Shown here: piece by piece, positions 44,438 to 62,832 of the stretch
Position numbering within the stretch: position 1 is the first letter of the stretch
Layout: every line of letters begins with the position of its first letter
Source of the DNA: Phaeobacter sp. CECT 5382
GTDB taxonomy: Bacteria > Pseudomonadota > Alphaproteobacteria > Rhodobacterales > Rhodobacteraceae
Assembly (NCBI RefSeq): GCF_001457775.1
Contig: NZ_CYSG01000011.1
Location: 1 to 64,000, forward strand
Direction of reading: 5' to 3'
DNA: 64,000 nucleotides
Position numbers and translations under genes: made by a program
Notes under the pieces: model-generated
Seen by the model: the letters and a program-made list of their open reading frames with translations, nothing else
What the model was told of the DNA's origin: nothing
Database searches by the model: none

Positions 44438-45199
44438 ATGCCAGAAAATGAAATGACGTTCTCTGTCTCATTGGCGCGGACAGATGCAGATATCCAGGCC
44501 GCGCAGGCGCTGCGCTATCAGGTGTTCGTCGAAGAAATGGGCGCAAGTGGACAGCAGGTCGACCATGCGGCGAAGCTGGAGCGCGATTATTTCGACGCGT
44601 TCTGTGATCATCTTCTGATCACGGAAACCCGCAGCAATCAGGTTATTGGCACTTATCGGCTGATGCGCCGGAAGCAGGCTGAGGCGGCCGGGCGGTTTTA
44701 TTCGGAAACCGAATACGATCTTGACACATTAAAGTCATCGGGCCGCAGCCTGCTTGAGGTTGGACGGTCCTGTTTGCATCCACAATTTCGAGGCGGATCT
44801 GCTCTGTTTCATTTGTGGAGTGGCCTGGCTGACTATGTCGCCACACATCGCATCGACGTTCTGTTTGGGGTCGCGAGCTTTCCCGGAACCGATCTGGATC
44901 AACTGGCCGAACCCCTGTCGATGCTTCACCACGGGTTTCTGGCACCAGAGTGGCTTCGCTGTCGGTCAGAAGTGTTTCAATCCATGGCGCTGCTGCCAAA
45001 GGAAGATGTGGATCGCAAACGCGCGATGCTGCAGATTCCTGCGTTAATCAAAGCCTATCTTCGACTTGGCGGGGTGATCGGCGAGGGTGCCTATGTTGAC
45101 CACAGCTTTAACACCACGGATGTCTGCATGATCCTGGACACCTGCGCCATGACGGACCGACAGAAGCGGATGTTCGCAGGCCCGCAGGTGGAAGGTTAA
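44438..45199 (+). CDS. olsB: L-ornithine N-alpha-acyltransferase OlsB
   Basis: A 253-residue GNAT-like acyltransferase that attaches a 3-hydroxyacyl group from acyl carrier protein to ornithine, giving lyso-ornithine lipid. The family text is QALRYQVFVEEMGASGQQVD, YFDAFCDHLLI, VIGTYRLMRRKQAEAAGRFY and LEVGRSCLHPQFRGGSALFH. OlsB shares its fold with LuxI-type signal synthases, but the sequence and neighbour identify OlsB. The start at 44438 lies about 107 bases after the DUF3553 gene. The olsA gene follows three bases after its stop. Ornithine lipids replace phospholipids under phosphate limitation in many marine bacteria. Confidence 0.93.
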   Translation: MPENEMTFSVSLARTDADIQAAQALRYQVFVEEMGASGQQVDHAAKLERDYFDAFCDHLLITETRSNQVIGTYRLMRRKQAEAAGRFYSETEYDLDTLKSSGRSLLEVGRSCLHPQFRGGSALFHLWSGLADYVATHRIDVLFGVASFPGTDLDQLAEPLSMLHHGFLAPEWLRCRSEVFQSMALLPKEDVDRKRAMLQIPALIKAYLRLGGVIGEGAYVDHSFNTTDVCMILDTCAMTDRQKRMFAGPQVEG

Positions 45200-45202
45200 A
45201 CC

Positions 45203-46030
45203 ATGCCGGAAACCTGGAACGAAGGAGAGGCTCCGGAGCCGATCCGCATCACCGCAATTGGCTGGGGCTTTGTTGTCTGCCGGGCTTTGGTGCTCGGGGG
45301 ATTGGTTTTTGGCGGATTGATCGTCCTTTTACTGCTGCGCCTGATCGAACGCCCGATTTGCGGACTGAACCGCCCGGTCACGCCCTTTATCACTCAGTTT
45401 GTCTGTCGCAATGCCTTTCGGGTGCTGGGCATGGAGTTTTCAACCCAAGGTGAACTGATGCGCCATCGGGGGGCCGTTGTGGCCAATCACACCTCCTGGC
45501 TGGATATTTTTGCGCTGAACGCCCGCAAGCGGATATATTTTGTTTCCAAGGCTGAGGTCGCAGGCTGGCCCGGCATCGGCTGGCTTGCCCGTGCGACTGG
45601 TACCGTTTTTATCGAACGCAACCGAAAGCGTGCGAAAGAACAGACCGAACTGTTTGAATCCCGCCTGCAGGCCGGACACAAGCTGCTGTTTTTCCCGGAA
45701 GGCACATCCACCGATGGTTTGCGCGTTTTGCCATTTAAAACAACGCTTTTTGCGGCCTTCTTTGGCGACCACTTACGTCAGATAAGCTATATCCAGCCTG
45801 TATCCGTGGTGTTTATTGCCCCAAAGGGCCAAGAGGCACGGTTCTACGGCTGGTGGGGCGATATGGACTTTGCGCCGCATCTGTTGAAAACGCTGGCGGC
45901 CCCCCGTCAGGGCCGCGTCGAGTTGATCTATCACAGCCCGCTAAAAGTCGCGGATTTTGCCGATCGCAAGGCGCTGGCCGCTGCCTGTGAAGCCGAGGTC
46001 CGCAAGGGACATGAGACTTTGCGCAAATAG
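45203..46030 (+). CDS. olsA: Lyso-ornithine lipid O-acyltransferase OlsA
   Basis: A 275-residue membrane acyltransferase of the PlsC type that completes ornithine lipid. One N-terminal helix (residues of about 23-45) anchors it. The catalytic block VVANHTSWLDIFALNARK has the NHxxxxD motif, and FFPEGTSTDGLRVLPFK has the phosphate/acyl-binding EGT motif. It is three bases from olsB, forming the usual olsBA operon. It could also act on lysophosphatidate, as many OlsA homologues do, which would support phospholipid synthesis. The stop precedes the rpsB leader by about 50 bases; no terminator is obvious there. Confidence 0.92.
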   Translation: MPETWNEGEAPEPIRITAIGWGFVVCRALVLGGLVFGGLIVLLLLRLIERPICGLNRPVTPFITQFVCRNAFRVLGMEFSTQGELMRHRGAVVANHTSWLDIFALNARKRIYFVSKAEVAGWPGIGWLARATGTVFIERNRKRAKEQTELFESRLQAGHKLLFFPEGTSTDGLRVLPFKTTLFAAFFGDHLRQISYIQPVSVVFIAPKGQEARFYGWWGDMDFAPHLLKTLAAPRQGRVELIYHSPLKVADFADRKALAAACEAEVRKGHETLRK

Positions 46031-46080
46031 CACTTGCAGGCGGTGCCAAGCTGTCCTATACGCGCGCCATCAAACCCGCA

Positions 46081-46154
46081 GGTGGGGTTTGGCCTGATCA
46101 GGGGAGACATCCCTGACAGACCGCCGGTTGGAGCGTCTGCTCTGAACCCCCACC
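46081..46154 (+). promoter_or_regulatory. Structured leader before rpsB
   Basis: GGTGGGG at 46081-46087 can pair with CCCCACC at 46148-46154, closing a domain that contains an inner hairpin TCAGGG (46098-46103) / CCCTGA (46111-46116). The domain ends 33 bases before the rpsB ATG. Ribosomal protein leaders of this kind often bind the encoded protein for feedback. The pairing is by eye only. Confidence 0.45.
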
Positions 46155-46186
46155 GAGGACTGAAACCGGAAAAAAGGAATACAAGC

Positions 46187-46954
46187 ATGGCTCTTCCCGA
46201 GTTCTCCATGCGCCAGCTGCTGGAAGCAGGCGTACACTTTGGTCACCAGACACAGCGCTGGAACCCCCGCATGGCACCTTACATCTATGGTGCACGCAAC
46301 GGCATCCACATCATGGATCTGACACAGACCGTTCCAATGCTGGACCAGTCGCTGCAGATCGTGCGTGACACTGTTGCCAAGGGCGGTCGTATCCTCTTCG
46401 TTGGTACCAAGCGTCAGGCCGCAGGCCCCATCGCCGAAGCCGCTGAGAAATCCGCTCAGTACTTCATGAACCACCGTTGGTTGGGTGGCACATTGACCAA
46501 CTGGAAAACCGTTTCCCAGTCGATCAAACGCCTGAACGAAATCAACGAGAAGCTCGAAGGTGGTGCCGAAGGCCTCACCAAGAAAGAGCGTCTGGGCATG
46601 GAACGTGACCAGCAGAAGCTGCAGGCTTCGCTTGGTGGTATCTCCGAGATGGGCGGCGTTCCTGACCTGCTGTTCGTCATCGACGTGAAAAAAGAAGCAC
46701 TGGCCATCGCCGAAGCCAAAAAGCTGGGTATCCCGGTTGTGGCTGTTGTCGACACCAACTGCTCGCCTGACGGTGTTGATTTCATCATCCCCGGCAACGA
46801 CGATGCATCGCGCGCTATCTCGCTCTATTGCGATCTGGTTGCACGCGCGGCCCTGGACGGCATGACCGCTCAGCTGGGTGCTGCTGGTGTTGACCTCGGC
46901 GCGCTGGAAGATGCGCCCGAAGAAGAGGCCGTCGCTGAAGAAGCTTCCGCCTAA
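46187..46954 (+). CDS. rpsB: 30S ribosomal protein S2
   Basis: A 255-residue small-subunit protein. It starts [20 protein letters not shown] and continues [20 protein letters not shown]; later parts [20 protein letters not shown] and [20 protein letters not shown] are diagnostic of S2. The acidic C-terminal tail ([15 protein letters not shown]) is typical of alphaproteobacteria. The ATG at 46187 has AAAGGA upstream; the frame opens earlier, but that part is the structured leader. It forms the conserved rpsB-tsf operon. Confidence 0.97.
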
Positions 46955-46979
46955 TCTGCCTGTCACAGGTTTGACATAC

Positions 46980-47001
46980 GGGGCAGGGTATCACCTGCCC
47001 C
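46980..47001 (+). terminator. Hairpin between rpsB and tsf
   Basis: GGGGCAGG at 46980-46987 pairs perfectly with CCTGCCCC at 46994-47001 across a six-base loop. No T tract follows, only AATTACG, so it is more likely an attenuator or RNA stability element than a full terminator. Confidence 0.6.
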
Positions 47002-47031
47002 AATTACGTTTAGATTTGAGGAGAGCCACAG

Positions 47032-47907
47032 ATGGCAATCACAGCTGCACTCGTTAAAGAACTGCGCGACTCCACCGGCGCTGGCATGATGGACGCGAAA
47101 AAAGCCCTGACCGAAACCAATGGTGACATGGAAGCCGCCGTTGACTGGCTGCGCACCAAAGGTCTGGCCAAAGCCGCGAAAAAATCCGGTCGTACCGCCG
47201 CCGAAGGTCTGGTCGCCGTTGTCGTCGATGGCGGCAAAGGTGTTGCGGTCGAAGTGAACTCGGAAACCGACTTTGTTGGTAAGAACGCCGAATTCCAAGA
47301 AATGGTTGGCGGAATCGCCAAGGTTGCTTTGGGTGTTGCAGATGTTGAGGCGCTGAAAGCGGCCGACATGGGCGGCAAAACCGTCGAAGCCGTGATCACC
47401 GCCAAAATCGCCACCATTGGCGAAAACATGTCGGTGCGCCGTATGGCTGCTCTCGAAGGCGAGACTGTCATCTCCTACGTTCACAATGCGGCAACTGCCG
47501 GTATGGGCAAAATCGGTGTTCTGGTTGCCTTGACCGGTGGCAATGAAGCATTCGGCAAACAGGTTGCAATGCACATTGCTGCTGTGAACCCTGCCGCTCT
47601 CTCCGAAGCTGACATGGATGCTTCGGTTGTTGAGAAGGAAAAGCAGGTTCAGATGGATATCGCACGCGAGTCCGGAAAGCCCGAAGCCGTGATCGAAAAA
47701 ATGATCGTTGGTCGGATGAAGAAATTCGTTGCTGAATCAACCCTTCTGAACCAGCAGTTCGTGGTGAACCCCGACCTGACCGTTGAAGCGGCCGCCAAAG
47801 AAGCTGGCGCCACCATCACCGGGTTTGTGCGTCTGGAAGTTGGCGAAGGCATCGAAGTCGAAAAAGAAGACTTTGCCGCCGAGGTTGCCAAGGCCGCTCA
47901 GGGCTAA
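47032..47907 (+). CDS. tsf: Elongation factor Ts
   Basis: A 291-residue nucleotide exchange factor for EF-Tu. It starts [20 protein letters not shown] and continues [20 protein letters not shown], the N-terminal UBA-like part. The EF-Tu-contacting motif is [15 protein letters not shown], followed by two core subdomains. The start has GAGGAGAG upstream. It is separated from rpsB by 77 bases containing a hairpin, and a clear terminator follows. Length and sequence are ordinary for the class. Confidence 0.97.
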
Positions 47908-47931
47908 GGCTCTAGAAGTTAAGAAATTAAA

Positions 47932-47964
47932 GGGGCTGATGGGAAACCGTCGGCCCTTTTTCTA
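47932..47964 (+). terminator. Terminator of rpsB-tsf
   Basis: GGGCTGA at 47933-47939 pairs with TCGGCCC at 47950-47956 (one wobble). TTTTTCTATTT follows. Confidence 0.85.
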
Positions 47965-48465
47965 TTTCACCTGCTGAAATCGGGTAGCGAAACCAAACGT
48001 GTTTTTTGGACAAAAGGGAGGACGTGGAGCCTTGGAAAGTTTGAAGATCCATATGCCAATGCGGTCATATCTGACCTGATCTAAGGCCAACTCCTTTGAC
48101 GTTGAAAAGGCAGGACGTGATTTCTCACACTGCCTAGCTCGGGTGTGGGGGCAAAAGAGAAAAGCGGAGGGGCTCCAAAAGATGGGGATGGATGGAGCCC
48201 CTCATTCTCACGGCACCGACGCGGAAAAATACACGTCGGAAACCGTACAGGTCCGAGAGCCTTGATATTGCAAGGGTCGTTTCCCAAAGTTCCTAGGCTA
48301 AAGCCACCACTCACGGAACATGATTAGTGTGCCTCACTTCAGTGAAAAAGTGTAGTAGTGTTTTCCATACCCGATTGACGCTAGCTTCCGATGGGTAAAC
48401 TCCCTCCAGGTTACGGGGAACACTGAGTTTTTTCTTCGAATGAAATTAAGGCATCGTGAAAATTA
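47965..48465. other. Intergenic region between tsf and luxR with a long hairpin
   Basis: Five hundred bases without a supported gene. The notable element is a perfect 11-base stem, GAGGGGCTCCA at 48167-48177 with its complement at 48193-48203 around a 15-base loop. Read on the minus strand it is followed by a T-rich tract, CGCTTTTCTCTTTT. It could end a long luxR transcript or belong to a small RNA. Open frames over the region are unsupported. Confidence 0.5.
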
Positions 48466-49221
48466 TCAAGATTCAACCACGTACATCTGGTTTTGCAGCG
48501 CCGCTTTTAAAACCGCCTGAGCCGTCGTTTCCACCGATAACGAATCTCTGGCGAGCCGCAAATGTTTTTCGACTGTCGCCGCCGTCAGCCCCATTAGCAG
48601 CGCAATATCCTGGGTGGTTTTACCATCCCCAACCCATTGCAACGCCTCTCTCTGCCGATTTGTCAGGCTTCGATTCGGAGGCGTATAGGGCAGTGTCAGA
48701 ATTTTGAGGTGAACGACGTTATTCATCAAAATGATGTCTTCGCCGTGCTCTAGCCACAGGGCATCAACGTCTTTCTGATCTCTTCCAGACGGTGCCCCAA
48801 GCGAGATAGCGCCCTTGTAGCGTTTTGAAGCTGAAAAGAAACTCACGGTGTATCCGGCTGTCATTCCGATCTCTTGGTTGAACGCAATAACCTGCCGCGC
48901 TTCTGGAGTAAGGCTCCCGCCAGCGCTCATCTCCTGGATTTTCTGCCAACTTCCTGCGCCTTCGTGCTCAAGCGCCCATCGCAACATGGGCGCATGAAAA
49001 TAGAGCCCCCGGTTCAAAAAGCCGTCCACGTATTCCTGATTGTGGTTGGTCAAAATGACAAAATCATCCGGATCGCCAAGCGAGGTTTCCGTCTTGAACC
49101 GCGTGTAGCCGTACATCAGCCGGTCAAAACCATAGTCGGCCATGCGCTGAACATGCGTATGCCACAACTCTTCAAGGCTTTTCGCGCCAGACACAAAGTG
49201 GAGATAGTCAAGTATGCTCAT
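48466..49221 (-). CDS. LuxR-family regulator with atypical autoinducer-binding domain
   Basis: A 251-residue regulator. Residues of about 15-165 form the autoinducer-binding domain and residues of about 183-245 the GerE helix-turn-helix (LTNRQREALQWVGDGKTTQD, then AATVEKHLRLARDSL). Against the six usual ligand positions, and with exact TraR spacing, W57 is Tyr64, Y61 is Phe68 and D70 is Ala77; P71 (Pro78) and W85 (Trp92) are kept. The Asp that holds the acyl-homoserine lactone amide is therefore missing. Either it binds another ligand or none. Its ATG overlaps the aroQ stop by four bases, so it is translated from the aroQ message. No luxI gene is in the window. Confidence 0.88.
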   Translation of the reverse strand: MSILDYLHFVSGAKSLEELWHTHVQRMADYGFDRLMYGYTRFKTETSLGDPDDFVILTNHNQEYVDGFLNRGLYFHAPMLRWALEHEGAGSWQKIQEMSAGGSLTPEARQVIAFNQEIGMTAGYTVSFFSASKRYKGAISLGAPSGRDQKDVDALWLEHGEDIILMNNVVHLKILTLPYTPPNRSLTNRQREALQWVGDGKTTQDIALLMGLTAATVEKHLRLARDSLSVETTAQAVLKAALQNQMYVVES

Positions 49222-49673
49222 GCGCCGGGGCCTCTGGTCGGTAATAGCCTACGGGCGAGAGCATCCAATGCCATCAGATACCCGAAACTGCCAAAGCCAC
49301 AGATCTGACCGATAACCGCTTTTGAAATATAGGACTTTTGGCGAAATTCTTCCCGAGCATGGATATTGGAAAGATGTACTTCAACGGCAGGCAGTTCTAC
49401 CGAAAATATGGCATCCATAAGAGCGATAGAGCTATGCGTGTAAGCACCTGCGTTCAGGACGAGGCCTGAATGGGTGTCGCGGGCATCATGGATTGCGTCC
49501 AGCAAAATACCTTCGTGATTGGATTGCAGGCATTCCACTGTCAGACCCAGTTTGACAGCGTGATCTTTGCAGGATTGCTCGACCATCTCTAGCGTTTCAC
49601 GACCGTAGACTTCTGGCTGGCGCGTGCCCAACAAATTCAAGTTTGGACCATTCAAGATCAAAATGCTCGGCAT
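49218..49673 (-). CDS. aroQ: Type II 3-dehydroquinate dehydratase
   Basis: A 151-residue dodecameric dehydratase converting 3-dehydroquinate to 3-dehydroshikimate. It shows ILILNGPNLNLLGTRQPEVYG with the catalytic Tyr, LQSNHEGILLDAIHDAR, the substrate-binding NAGAYTHSSIALMDAI, and EVHLSNIHAREEFRQKSYIS with the catalytic His. All catalytic residues are present. The start is taken at ATG 49673, eight bases after GGGGAG; a GTG two codons earlier is too close to that site. It leads a two-gene operon with luxR, which is unusual for a shikimate or quinate pathway gene, and a lux-box-like palindrome lies upstream. A second housekeeping aroQ may exist elsewhere. Confidence 0.95.
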   Translation of the reverse strand: MPSILILNGPNLNLLGTRQPEVYGRETLEMVEQSCKDHAVKLGLTVECLQSNHEGILLDAIHDARDTHSGLVLNAGAYTHSSIALMDAIFSVELPAVEVHLSNIHAREEFRQKSYISKAVIGQICGFGSFGYLMALDALARRLLPTRGPGA

Positions 49674-49701
49674 CTCCACTCCCCATCGTTAAAACCCTAG
49701 G

Positions 49702-49722
49702 GTGAAACTATGATAGTTTTAC
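49702..49722. promoter_or_regulatory. Lux-box-like inverted repeat upstream of aroQ-luxR
   Basis: GTGAAACTA at 49702-49710 and TAGTTTTAC at 49714-49722 are inverted copies with one mismatch in nine and a three-base centre, 21 bases in all. It lies 28 bases before the aroQ start codon, where a LuxR-type protein could autoregulate the operon. Confidence 0.5.
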
Positions 49723-49828
49723 TGCAGAAGCGAAGCCAAGAAACCCGCTTTTGTTTCCGGCATGTTGCTATTTTCGCACGCAAAAGTGGGCGGATGCTCC
49801 AATGATTTCGAACACCCGCCGCACAGTA

Positions 49829-50824
49829 TCAGGCGTTGGTCAGAACAACTTCCCCCAAAACCCGCCGGTCCTGCATCATTTCCAAAGCCGTGGCAGCCTC
49901 GGTCATCGGAAAGGTGGCGCAGATTTGCGGCTTGATTTTGCCTGCTGCATAAAGTGCCTGCAATTCGGCCATGTTTTGTGCGTGGCCTTTGGGGTCGCGA
50001 AACACCGAAGCCCCCCAAAAGACGCCACGAATATCACAGCCCTTCAGAAGGGGGAGGTTGAGCGGAATTTCTGGAATGCCGGCGGGGAAGCCTACCACCA
50101 GATAACGCCCCTTCCAGGCCATCGCACGCAGGGCCGGTTCTGCATAGTCTCCCCCGACCGCGTCATAGGTGACATCGACACCATCTTTACCGGATAGCGA
50201 TTTGATATCTTTCGAAAATTGCTTTTGCGCATCCTTAGTCATCTCGCGCGGATAGATCAGTGTCTCATCCGCTCCAATAGCCTTGCAAAATGCGGCTTTT
50301 TCCTTCGAAGAAACTGCTGCGATGACCTGTGCGCCCATTGATTTTCCAAGCTCTATGGCGGCAGCCCCAACGCCCCCTGCAGCGCCCAGAATTAAAAGCG
50401 TCTCGCCAGGTTTCAAATCGGCACGGTCTTTCAACGCGTGATAAGAGGTGCCATAGGTGAAAACAAAGGCCGCAGCTTCTTCATAGGGCATGGCATCCGG
50501 AAACTTCACCGCCTGAGCAGCGGCAACGCAGATCTGGGTTGCAAAACCACCGTGTCCGGTGAGCGCTAGAACACGGTCGCCAAGGTCAAACCCAGTGACA
50601 CCTTCACCGATCGCCACAACTTCCCCGGAGATTTCACCACCAGGTGCAAAGGGGCGTGGGGGTTTCATCTGGTAGAGGTCTCGAATGATCAATGTGTCGG
50701 GGAAATTGACCCCAGCGGCCTTGATCGCAACCAGGAGCTCGCCTTTACCGGCCACAAGATCCGGCTGTTCCGTCCATGTCAGCGTCTCCGGTCCACCCGG
50801 CGCTGTGCTTAGCATTGATTTCAT
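49829..50824 (-). CDS. NADPH:quinone oxidoreductase family protein (zinc-free MDR)
   Basis: A 331-residue medium-chain reductase without the zinc ligands of alcohol dehydrogenases. It has GVNFPDTLIIRDLYQMKPPR, the GroES-like half with PGGEISGEVVAIGEGV, the NADPH fold LILGAAGGVGAAAIELGKSM and the catalytic-area GYDAV-type text VDVTYDAVGGDY. It would reduce quinones or enoyl-type substrates. It is divergent from the two acyl-CoA dehydrogenase genes with about 160 bases between, so it probably shares their control. A role as trans-enoyl-CoA or enone reductase in the same catabolic pathway is plausible but inferred. Confidence 0.87.
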   Translation of the reverse strand: MKSMLSTAPGGPETLTWTEQPDLVAGKGELLVAIKAAGVNFPDTLIIRDLYQMKPPRPFAPGGEISGEVVAIGEGVTGFDLGDRVLALTGHGGFATQICVAAAQAVKFPDAMPYEEAAAFVFTYGTSYHALKDRADLKPGETLLILGAAGGVGAAAIELGKSMGAQVIAAVSSKEKAAFCKAIGADETLIYPREMTKDAQKQFSKDIKSLSGKDGVDVTYDAVGGDYAEPALRAMAWKGRYLVVGFPAGIPEIPLNLPLLKGCDIRGVFWGASVFRDPKGHAQNMAELQALYAAGKIKPQICATFPMTEAATALEMMQDRRVLGEVVLTNA

Positions 50825-50917
50825 TGTTCTTCCCTCTGGTCACCCGGTATGGGCGCCTGTTTCCTGAAATTACGTAAAGTCTTCTGCTCAGCTGCCTCGT
50901 TGTCAATGCAATAGCGA

Positions 50918-50933
50918 AATGTAATTCTACATT
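50918..50933. promoter_or_regulatory. Palindrome in the divergent acyl-CoA catabolic promoter
   Basis: AATGTA at 50918-50923 and TACATT at 50928-50933 are perfect inverted six-base arms around ATTC. It lies 55 bases before the first acyl-CoA dehydrogenase start and about 95 from the divergent reductase start, suited to a TetR- or MerR-type repressor of acyl-CoA degradation. Confidence 0.45.
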
Positions 50934-50988
50934 GTGAAACCGCTGGAACCTTAGGGAGGCATCAGGCGGAGGGTTACGGGGAGAGAAT

Positions 50989-52164
50989 ATGACCACTGTC
51001 ACAGAACAGGCGACATCAGACAGCGTCGGATTTCGGACTGAAATCCGCGATTGGCTGGCAGCCAATTGTCCGGAAGAAATGCGAGACGGTACCAGCGGTG
51101 AAGACAGCATCTGCTGGGGAGGCAGCACTTGGGTCTTCACCAGTCCGGCCCAAAAAACTTGGCTCGACCGCTGTGCGGCGCGGGGGTTTACCGTGCCAAC
51201 ATGGCCAAAGGCCTATGGTGGTGCCGGTCTTAACCGCGATCAGGACAAGATCCTGAAGGAGGAGATGCAGCGTATCGGTGCCCGTTCACCGCTTGATAGT
51301 TTCGGCATCTGGATGCTTGGCCCCGCTTTGCTGAAATTCGGCACTGAAGAACAAAAACAGCAGTTCCTGCCACCTATTGCCCGCGGAGAGATACGCTGGT
51401 GCCAAGGTTATTCCGAACCGGGTGCGGGGTCGGATCTCGCCGGTGTTCAGACCTATGGCGCCGATCATGGTAATCACTGGGTGGTCAATGGGCAAAAGAT
51501 CTGGACCTCATATGCGGATCGGGCCGATTGGATTTTTGCTCTGGTTCGCACCGATCGGGACGCGCGCAAACACCTTGGAATTTCTTTTGTTCTTATGGAC
51601 ATGCGCTGCGAAGGTATCTCAACTCGGCCAATCCAGTTGATTTCAGGAGCCTCGCCATTTTGTGAGACGTTTTTTGACAATGTTGAGGTCTCTAAAACCC
51701 AGGTGGTTGGCGACATCAACCGCGGCTGGGACGTCGCAAAATATCTGCTGACCCATGAACGCGAGATGATCAGCAACGGCGGCAATGTGCTGGGAAGTGG
51801 GCGCGCCCTAGGGGCCGTCATTGCGGATGCCGAAACCGGCCAGAGTGATCCGGTTTTGCGGGCTGATGCTATGCGCGCCGAAGTGGACAGTCTGGCGTTG
51901 GAGATGACCTTGGAACGCTACAAGGATCAGGCCGAGGGCGGGCAGGGTGTCGGTGACGCCTCCGCCATGTTGAAATACATGGGCACAGAGCTGAACAAAC
52001 GCCGTCTTGAATTGGTGATGTCAGCTGAAGGCACCGCCGCATTGGACTGGCAGGACAGCCCGGCCTCGGATTGGCTCAGAACCAAGGCAAATTCCATCGA
52101 GGGCGGCACCTCTGAGGTGATGCTGTCGATCATCAGTCGCCGCATTTTGAACCTTCCGGGATAA
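50989..52164 (+). CDS. Acyl-CoA dehydrogenase (first of a pair)
   Basis: A 391-residue FAD-dependent dehydrogenase. The N-terminal helical domain includes PTWPKAYGGAGLNRDQDKIL; the flavin-binding middle shows WCQGYSEPGAGSDLAGVQTY and NGQKIWTSYADRADWIF; the C-terminal domain ends NSIEGGTSEVMLSIISRRIL, close to the FadE26 and FadE28 style of sterol-degrading dehydrogenases. It introduces a double bond into an acyl-CoA. A second, smaller dehydrogenase starts five bases after its stop, an arrangement typical of obligate alpha2beta2 enzymes. The exact catalytic Glu cannot be assigned by eye. It opens the catabolic operon downstream of a palindrome. Confidence 0.93.
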   Translation: MTTVTEQATSDSVGFRTEIRDWLAANCPEEMRDGTSGEDSICWGGSTWVFTSPAQKTWLDRCAARGFTVPTWPKAYGGAGLNRDQDKILKEEMQRIGARSPLDSFGIWMLGPALLKFGTEEQKQQFLPPIARGEIRWCQGYSEPGAGSDLAGVQTYGADHGNHWVVNGQKIWTSYADRADWIFALVRTDRDARKHLGISFVLMDMRCEGISTRPIQLISGASPFCETFFDNVEVSKTQVVGDINRGWDVAKYLLTHEREMISNGGNVLGSGRALGAVIADAETGQSDPVLRADAMRAEVDSLALEMTLERYKDQAEGGQGVGDASAMLKYMGTELNKRRLELVMSAEGTAALDWQDSPASDWLRTKANSIEGGTSEVMLSIISRRILNLPG

Positions 52165-62693: not shown

Positions 62694-62832
62694 CTTTGCC
62701 GCCTTGATCCTTGGTTTCATTGGACAAAGGCTATCCGGTCATAGCAAAGCTGCCAATCCTGTGTGACGGAACGGAATTGGTAGTTATTCACCATAATACT
62801 GATTATAAGAATAAGGGCGCGACAGTGGCTCC

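Follow-up and report, generated by a model that had tools for sequence, protein, structure and literature searches.

A LuxR solo linked to aroQ and tsf in Rhodobacteraceae, probably not tuned to ordinary acyl-homoserine lactones, is predicted to activate one conserved structured RNA

Introduction

Which signal does a LuxR-type regulator sense, and what does it control, when its gene is joined to that of the housekeeping enzyme AroQ? The question is raised by a locus in the genome of a marine roseobacter, which we analyzed within a stretch of 64,000 nucleotides (the window). The closest named relatives in the search were Pseudophaeobacter and Leisingera, with the reservation that records very near the window may be omitted. 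Three genes frame the locus:

47032-47907, plus strand: tsf, convergent with luxR and with the RNA described below; a conserved neighbor
48466-49221, minus strand: luxR solo, with an autoinducer-binding-type domain and a GerE helix-turn-helix; YFAPWG pocket motif and E178Q
49218-49679, minus strand: aroQ, type II 3-dehydroquinate dehydratase, by Pfam match

The initial annotation had described aroQ and luxR as a pair, and both indeed lie on the minus strand with an overlap of four bases. The luxR product matches the Pfam domains Autoind_bind (104.6 bits) and GerE (35.9 bits). AroQ matches DHquinase_II (198.2 bits) and is the sole PF01220 match in the genome; the start common to relatives is probably the ATG at 49673-49671. 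Upstream of rpsB-tsf, window positions 44438-46030 hold a gene for a GNAT protein (PF13444 match), which remains nearby in many relatives, followed by a 275-residue open reading frame that looks acyltransferase-like by eye.

The aroQ-luxR pair and its pocket substitutions are already published. Subramoni et al. (2015; PMC4338825, Table 4) list "group 1" LuxR solos of unassigned function from 25 genera, with the gene context aroQ or gene X - luxR - tsf(C) and the substitutions W57Y, Y61F, D70I/G/A, P71V and E178Q, and propose a role in aromatic amino acid synthesis. The window LuxR has the same neighbors, carries W57Y, Y61F, D70A and E178Q, and comes from the same bacterial group. In R. pomeroyi, SPO1973 is a type II aroQ (PMC10041152) and SPO1974 an orphan luxR (PMC3824088, Table A2), and we infer from the locus numbering that these form the same pair. 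VarR of Nautella italica was considered as a counterpart of the window LuxR and set aside: the solo LuxR of PMC3230580, treated as VarR in PMC4602140, is described there only from two bleaching strains, and its copies are 40% identical.

The source genome carries two luxI-type matches and two other LuxR receptors. The luxI-linked receptor, encoded on contig C6, has the canonical motif WYDPWG and was used as an internal control. The third LuxR-type receptor of the genome (L003, G000:C7:27626-28045) has an altered pocket, with Ile/Tyr/Asp/Ile at W57/Y61/D70/P71, and lies on a different contig from both luxI-type matches.

Results

Binding pocket and fold of the LuxR solo

Orthologues were identified by protein search (E below 1e-30) in 85 of 119 genomes of the family. 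After exclusion of three paralogue-like second copies from the 80 fetched loci, the remaining 77 and the window gave a set of 78; seven genomes with an orthologue lie outside the fetched loci. The excluded copies (L114, G031:C20; L115, G042:C43; L109, G081:C1:531994) are more distant, at about 41-45% identity, and have neither aroQ nor tsf within the fetched stretch.

An alignment to the solved CviR, read by eye, equates Tyr64, Phe68 and Ala77 with W57, Y61 and D70, exactly as initially annotated, and identifies P71 (Pro78) and W85 (Trp92) as retained. Alignment column 77 is never Asp or Glu in the 78 orthologues, the residue being A in 64, G in 6, S in 3, T in 3, and V and I in one each. A fourth substitution, E178Q (Gln190), had been overlooked and is present in 78/78. 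The pocket motif reads YFAPWG in 59 of the 78 sequences. Thus, the first three residues of the AHL-receptor signature W57/Y61/D70/P71/W85/G113 are replaced and the last three are kept: Trp57 occurs in only one orthologue, Pro71 in 75, and Trp85 and Gly113 in all 78. The DNA-binding helix is strongly conserved, with E218, K219, H220, R222, A224 and R225 invariant across the set.

An AlphaFold (AF2) model built from 30 sequences (pLDDT 82, pTM 0.71) has the LasR/TraR fold. Its best PDB matches are LasR, RhlR, QscR and TraR, with whole-chain TM values of about 0.5-0.6, and the LasR ligand domain alone compares with TM 0.84. With both Pfam domains and the LuxR/LasR fold, the protein is a two-domain regulator of the LuxR type.

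Because Asp70, Trp57 and Tyr61 are all replaced, the pocket suggests that the ligand is probably not a standard AHL. In this respect the first reading of the locus, which had proposed a ligand other than an AHL, appears sound; the tie to shikimate or quinate that it had added is weak, as discussed below. Altered pocket motifs and non-AHL compounds are also known from PluR, PauR and the plant-associated LuxR solos (PMC4414361). The latter are described there by W57M and Y61W, in contrast to W57Y and Y61F here, and PluR and PauR retain the Asp at 70 that is replaced in every orthologue that we counted.

It is unlikely, though well within reason, that LuxR is still a receptor for its own or foreign AHLs and couples quorum sensing to the small RNA described below. 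A luxI match is present in 82 of the 85 genomes with the luxR solo and in 23 of the 34 without it, a co-presence that fits an AHL link as well as genome reduction, and the residues kept in the pocket would suit such a role. For PluR and PauR, moreover, the six-residue motif is reported to be essential without being the sole determinant of specificity (PMC4414361). It is because of the luxI association, and because the motif alone does not decide specificity, that AHLs retain some weight. The loss of Asp70 in all counted orthologues and the persistence of the luxR solo in three genomes without a luxI match (G052, G067 and G099) argue against the AHLs of the genome itself. A luxI1 mutant of D. 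shibae showed no significant change in expression of the orphan genes luxR3-5, whether AHLs were present or absent (PMC4886583); this observation against the AHL reading concerns expression only.

Linkage to aroQ and elements upstream of the operon

The aroQ gene adjoins luxR in 47 of the 78 orthologue loci and is unlinked in 31. The 2015 survey of group 1 solos states that aroQ was always co-transcribed in the representative genomes analyzed (PMC4338825), in contrast to the 47/78 loci found here. Among 80 closer, named loci, aroQ was linked in 67, unlinked in 12 and cut in one. Mapped on the best LuxR tree, linkage requires 16 changes, 6 of them forced by well-supported branches, although the label is more clustered than shuffled labels (16 versus a mean of 26.1). 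The pocket was unaffected by linkage (YFAPWG in 37/47 linked and 22/31 unlinked loci). The steadier neighbor is tsf, convergent in 73/78 orthologue loci and 76/80 named loci.

The initial annotation had further suggested that LuxR autoregulates its operon through an inverted repeat upstream of aroQ:

49702-49722, no strand: inverted repeat GTGAAACTA-TGA-TAGTTTTAC, real and unconserved, not an operator

The repeat exists, with one mismatch in nine. However, the window contains 109 repeats of equal quality (spacers 0-8), and such a repeat turns up in 10.3% of shuffled versions of the 150-nt intergenic region (2.5% at a spacer of exactly 3). The best match had 6-9 mismatches over the 18 arm positions in 11 loci of the same genus, and 6-10 mismatches in the 80 named loci. 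Being unconserved and within chance, the repeat is not the conserved upstream palindrome expected of a lux-box operator, and autoregulation through it was discarded.

The strongest dyad upstream of the operon is of a different nature. TAAT-N4-ATTA was found upstream of aroQ/luxR in 29 of 70 loci (eight loci of the same genus were omitted as near-copies), whereas shuffles gave at most 7. A whole-genome search found its fuller form, ATAAT-N4-ATTATG, in 168 of 194 genomes, mostly as one palindromic copy and irrespective of the presence of this luxR, and in 11 inspected loci of other families its neighbors are unrelated to the aroQ-luxR locus. We therefore rejected it as a luxR operator in favor of an XerCD dif site; from its resemblance to the E. 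coli site, we take it to be the chromosomal dif site. Of the 78 orthologue loci, 42 contain the dif core, and in 34 of these it lies within 450 bp upstream of the luxR operon. In the window, a dif-like XerCD site, CATAATACTGATTATA, with one mismatch to the palindromic core, is located at 62792-62807. In one genome (G066, 20 samples), the GC skew flips from mostly positive to negative around luxR. The aroQ-luxR locus thus seems to be near the replication terminus, which may help to explain the variable upstream gene.

A CTGGACA-type element, CTGGACAG, about 55 nt before aroQ, is present in 17 of 47 aroQ-linked loci and in one of 31 unlinked loci. It tracks aroQ, not luxR, and is read as a -35-like promoter element rather than as a luxR operator. 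Hence, no luxR-associated palindrome was found upstream of the operon, where the strongest dyad is dif and the remainder goes with aroQ.

These data make it very improbable that the ligand of LuxR is a shikimate or quinate metabolite and that the protein controls its own operon, aroQ-luxR, through the repeat at 49702-49722. The four-base overlap, the adjacency in 47/78 loci and the missing Asp70 are in keeping with the idea, and a role in aromatic amino acid synthesis was also suggested for group 1 solos (PMC4338825). Against it stand the chance-level repeat, unconserved even within the genus, and the lack of an upstream palindrome that tracks luxR. The loose link to aroQ, with an identical pocket in unlinked loci, weakens the case for a shikimate ligand further.

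A conserved structured RNA between luxR and tsf

The gap between luxR and tsf, outside the segment covered by the initial annotation, contains a strongly conserved block with the following features:

48165-48319, minus strand: conserved structured non-coding RNA, by covariation; the covariance model R1 scores 163.8 bits over 48165-48323
48167-48203, minus strand: hairpin at the 3' end of the RNA, resembling a terminator as judged by eye; its loop, CAUCCCCA, is conserved, and a pyrimidine-rich tail is present

Based on conservation, we propose 48319, the G of GTTCC, as the first base. A simple terminator scan found only a short overlapping stem at 48167-48203, and there was no excess of terminators over shuffles. 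nhmmer detected the RNA beyond luxR in 153 of 161 regions, namely 73/78 orthologue loci, 80/80 named loci and 0/3 paralogues.

Structure was analyzed in 37 sequences, taken from 45 aligned ones that were themselves the closest to the window among 108 thinned sequences. The consensus has seven helices, with 94.3% of the cells paired. Two-sided compensatory changes were found for 17 of 30 base pairs, and 79 compensatory cells were counted against a shuffled mean of 26.8, a value that none of 500 shuffles reached. When pairing partners were slid, merely 27-58% of the cells were paired. The structure was derived from the same alignment that was used in this comparison, which favors it. In the wider alignment of 108 sequences RNAalifold retained only 9 pairs. 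In these, G-U cells outnumber A-C cells by 66 to 5, which places the RNA on the luxR strand. On this strand the window sequence also folds better than its shuffles, with a z of -3.8 compared with -1.5 on the opposite strand.

We also considered and rejected a coding function. The three frames contain stop codons in 37, 35 and 24 of the 37 sequences; still, one frame is open in 13 of them, the genus of the window included. With covariation beyond shuffles and stops in every frame, the block is by sequence comparison a structured non-coding RNA. The 5' end, GUUCCGUGAGUGGUGGCUU, and the last loop, CAUCCCCA, are wholly or nearly invariant in the 37 sequences.

In Rfam 15, no match reached the gathering score in 46000-51000 and none was found in 48100-48465 at E<=5, and at gathering score none was found in five named loci, including the R. 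pomeroyi locus L208. The RNA therefore appears to be a family missing from Rfam. Under stricter filters, a search with the covariance model gave hits in 75 of 194 genomes. All 75 belong to the same family (0/75 in other families); G035 and G017 match weakly, and a second, partial hit occurs in one genome.

The account of group 1 solos in PMC4338825 mentions neither the RNA nor the palindrome described below, both of which are proposed here. A description of a luxR-linked RNA or palindrome was not found in the open-access literature searched, and novelty of the RNA is likely rather than established. A survey of Paracoccus denitrificans reports conserved Rhodobacteraceae sRNAs (PMC5107571). The closest published candidate is a 188-nt antisense transcript of R. 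pomeroyi, "riboswitch82", listed at SPO1974 (PMC4809877); it may be the same RNA.

A candidate operator at fixed distance from the RNA

A search of the sequence between luxR and the RNA points to two elements of a predicted promoter:

48354-48371, minus strand: candidate LuxR operator GGTATGGAAAACACTACT, GTANGG-N4-CMNTAC, centered 43-44 nt before the first stem of the RNA
48326-48331, minus strand: CACACT, the -10-like hexamer of the proposed promoter of the RNA; its consensus form, CANNNT, spans -12 to -7

The 17-base operator pattern has one exact match in the 4.11-Mb genome, at 48354-48370. When the last 40 nt of luxR were added to the searched sequence, 70 of the 78 loci could be anchored on the RNA. 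In 69 of these, a palindrome GTANGG-N4-CCNTAC with a score of at least 8/10 is found 42-45 nt before the 5' stem, in 58 at exactly 43 nt. Leaving out the coding end of luxR gives 67/70, because L103 and L111 have a site that extends over the luxR stop. Only one of 1340 shuffled sequences reached a score of 8 at 43/44 nt. In the promoter consensus of 68 loci, G-14 occurs in 53, C-12 in 55, A-11 in 65 and T-7 in 60; G+1 occurs in 68/68, this G being the alignment anchor. In these loci, 7-204 nt (median 74) separate the luxR stop from the start of the palindrome.

The eight non-anchored loci include four distant ones without nhmmer-detectable RNA (L106, L108, L112 and L113), and L055, L084 and L095, with best nearby palindrome scores of 8, 8 and 7. 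In one genome with luxR and RNA and without a luxI match (G099; L062, L314), a different palindrome, GCGCGGG-CGT-CCCGCGC, occupies the operator position, possibly representing a switch of operator.

In the class II promoters of LuxR/TraR-type proteins (lux, tra), the lux box lies near -42.5. The segment 48371-48319 shares this geometry, with a palindrome of 16-18 bases about 43 nt before the presumed start, then a -10 element and no strong -35. Unlike these promoters, it would drive an RNA, and the gene of its presumed regulator is found directly upstream on the same strand. The palindrome also differs in sequence from the classical lux box.

We consider it rather unlikely that the RNA belongs to the 3' end of a transcript of aroQ-luxR or of luxR alone, or acts on tsf as an antisense or terminator element, and that the palindrome serves another DNA-binding protein, e.g., other LuxR receptors of the genome. 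The palindrome is located past the luxR stop, and the RNA follows closely on the same strand. In a genome that has lost luxR (G116, see below), a gap of 73 nt separates aroQ from the RNA, which could be part of the aroQ transcript, and the R. pomeroyi transcript at the orthologue SPO1974 was called antisense (PMC4809877). However, the fixed spacing between palindrome and first stem and the -10 consensus represent the design of a promoter and not of a 3' end.

The operator pattern was also searched in 36 chosen genomes, giving 47 matches, 28 at the luxR-RNA locus and 19 elsewhere, against 12 for the reversed control. Inspection of 8 of the 19 off-locus matches showed no evident common target, and a palindrome regulon was rejected: no second conserved target was found among these genomes and inspected matches. 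Two off-locus matches fall in the starts of apparently related TPR-type genes.

Coupling of luxR, palindrome and RNA

Among the 119 genomes of the family, 72 have both luxR and the RNA, 13 luxR only, 3 the RNA only, and 31 neither (Fisher p 5e-15, computed ignoring relatedness). Among ten loci fetched from the 13 luxR-only genomes, six do have the RNA according to nhmmer, so that part of the 13 are filter losses.

Of the RNA-only genomes, G116 has lost luxR, and aroQ, the RNA (72.8 bits) and tsf follow in order; the palindrome score is down to 3/10. G035, without an orthologue, has a degenerate RNA (21.7 bits) beside tsf and palindrome scores of 3 and 2, and G017 has a weak match of 16.8 bits. 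Conversely, G067 and G106 carry the RNA beside tsf and have luxR at another place in the assembly, with palindrome scores of 8 and 10; G067 is also one of the genomes without a luxI match. Both assemblies are fragmented and could mislead: in G067 luxR sits at the edge of a contig, and in G106 it is matched only in part. Sequence comparison thus suggests that the palindrome goes with luxR and is kept when luxR is not adjacent, with two genomes each pointing in the same direction. G099, with its different palindrome, and the four distant luxR loci in which nhmmer detects no RNA count against the coupling. G116 has four luxI-type matches, and its palindrome has gone along with this luxR nevertheless, indicating that other quorum-sensing receptors did not keep it and arguing against another receptor as its user.

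The same genome bears on the sign of regulation. Repression of the RNA from the palindrome is an unlikely reading: some LuxR-type proteins do repress (PMC10134790), and the palindrome adjoins the -35 region. Yet the site is centered at about -43, the consensus has no separate -35, and, as judged by eye, no -35 has replaced the lost LuxR and its site in G116, which suits an activator better.

Discussion

On balance, the LuxR solo likely acts as an activator of one conserved small RNA and probably responds to something other than ordinary AHLs. In genomes where the genes are linked, LuxR would be made together with the housekeeping AroQ from the aroQ promoter. A LuxR dimer would bind the palindrome that closely follows the luxR stop codon (48354-48371, minus strand). 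With this site in class II position, about 43 nt before the start, it would recruit RNA polymerase. The polymerase would then transcribe a structured RNA of roughly 155 nt (48319-48165), ending in the terminator-like hairpin. The RNA may act on messengers or on a protein, perhaps through the near-invariant CAUCCCCA loop.

A possible target is suggested by complementarity. At window positions 49680-49687, GAUGGGGA in the aroQ leader is complementary over 8 bases to the RNA loop UCCCCAUC. Loops were found in 52 loci, 34 of them with linked aroQ. In 13 of the 34, at least 6 bases pair with the aroQ leader, compared with 6.8% of shuffled leaders, and pairing is scarcer for the leaders of luxR (4/52), tsf (2/49) and rpsB (1/47). 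Ordinary G-rich ribosome sites could explain the pairing, and we leave it as a lead. A fuller scheme goes further: throughout the family, a LuxR solo with a non-AHL ligand would have just one conserved target, a small RNA of a new class, whose C-rich loop would block the translation of aroQ and other messengers with GGGGAU-type leaders. In its entirety this scheme strikes us as improbable.

Group 1 LuxR solos occur in 85 of the 119 sampled genomes of the family, a major marine group, and their role was left open by the 2015 survey. The predicted operator and single RNA target now give direct tests of this role and a clean reporter for the ligand. If the reading of the RNA loop were true, the locus would represent a circuit from a signal to aromatic metabolism that is run by an RNA, and not by LuxR on the aroQ promoter.
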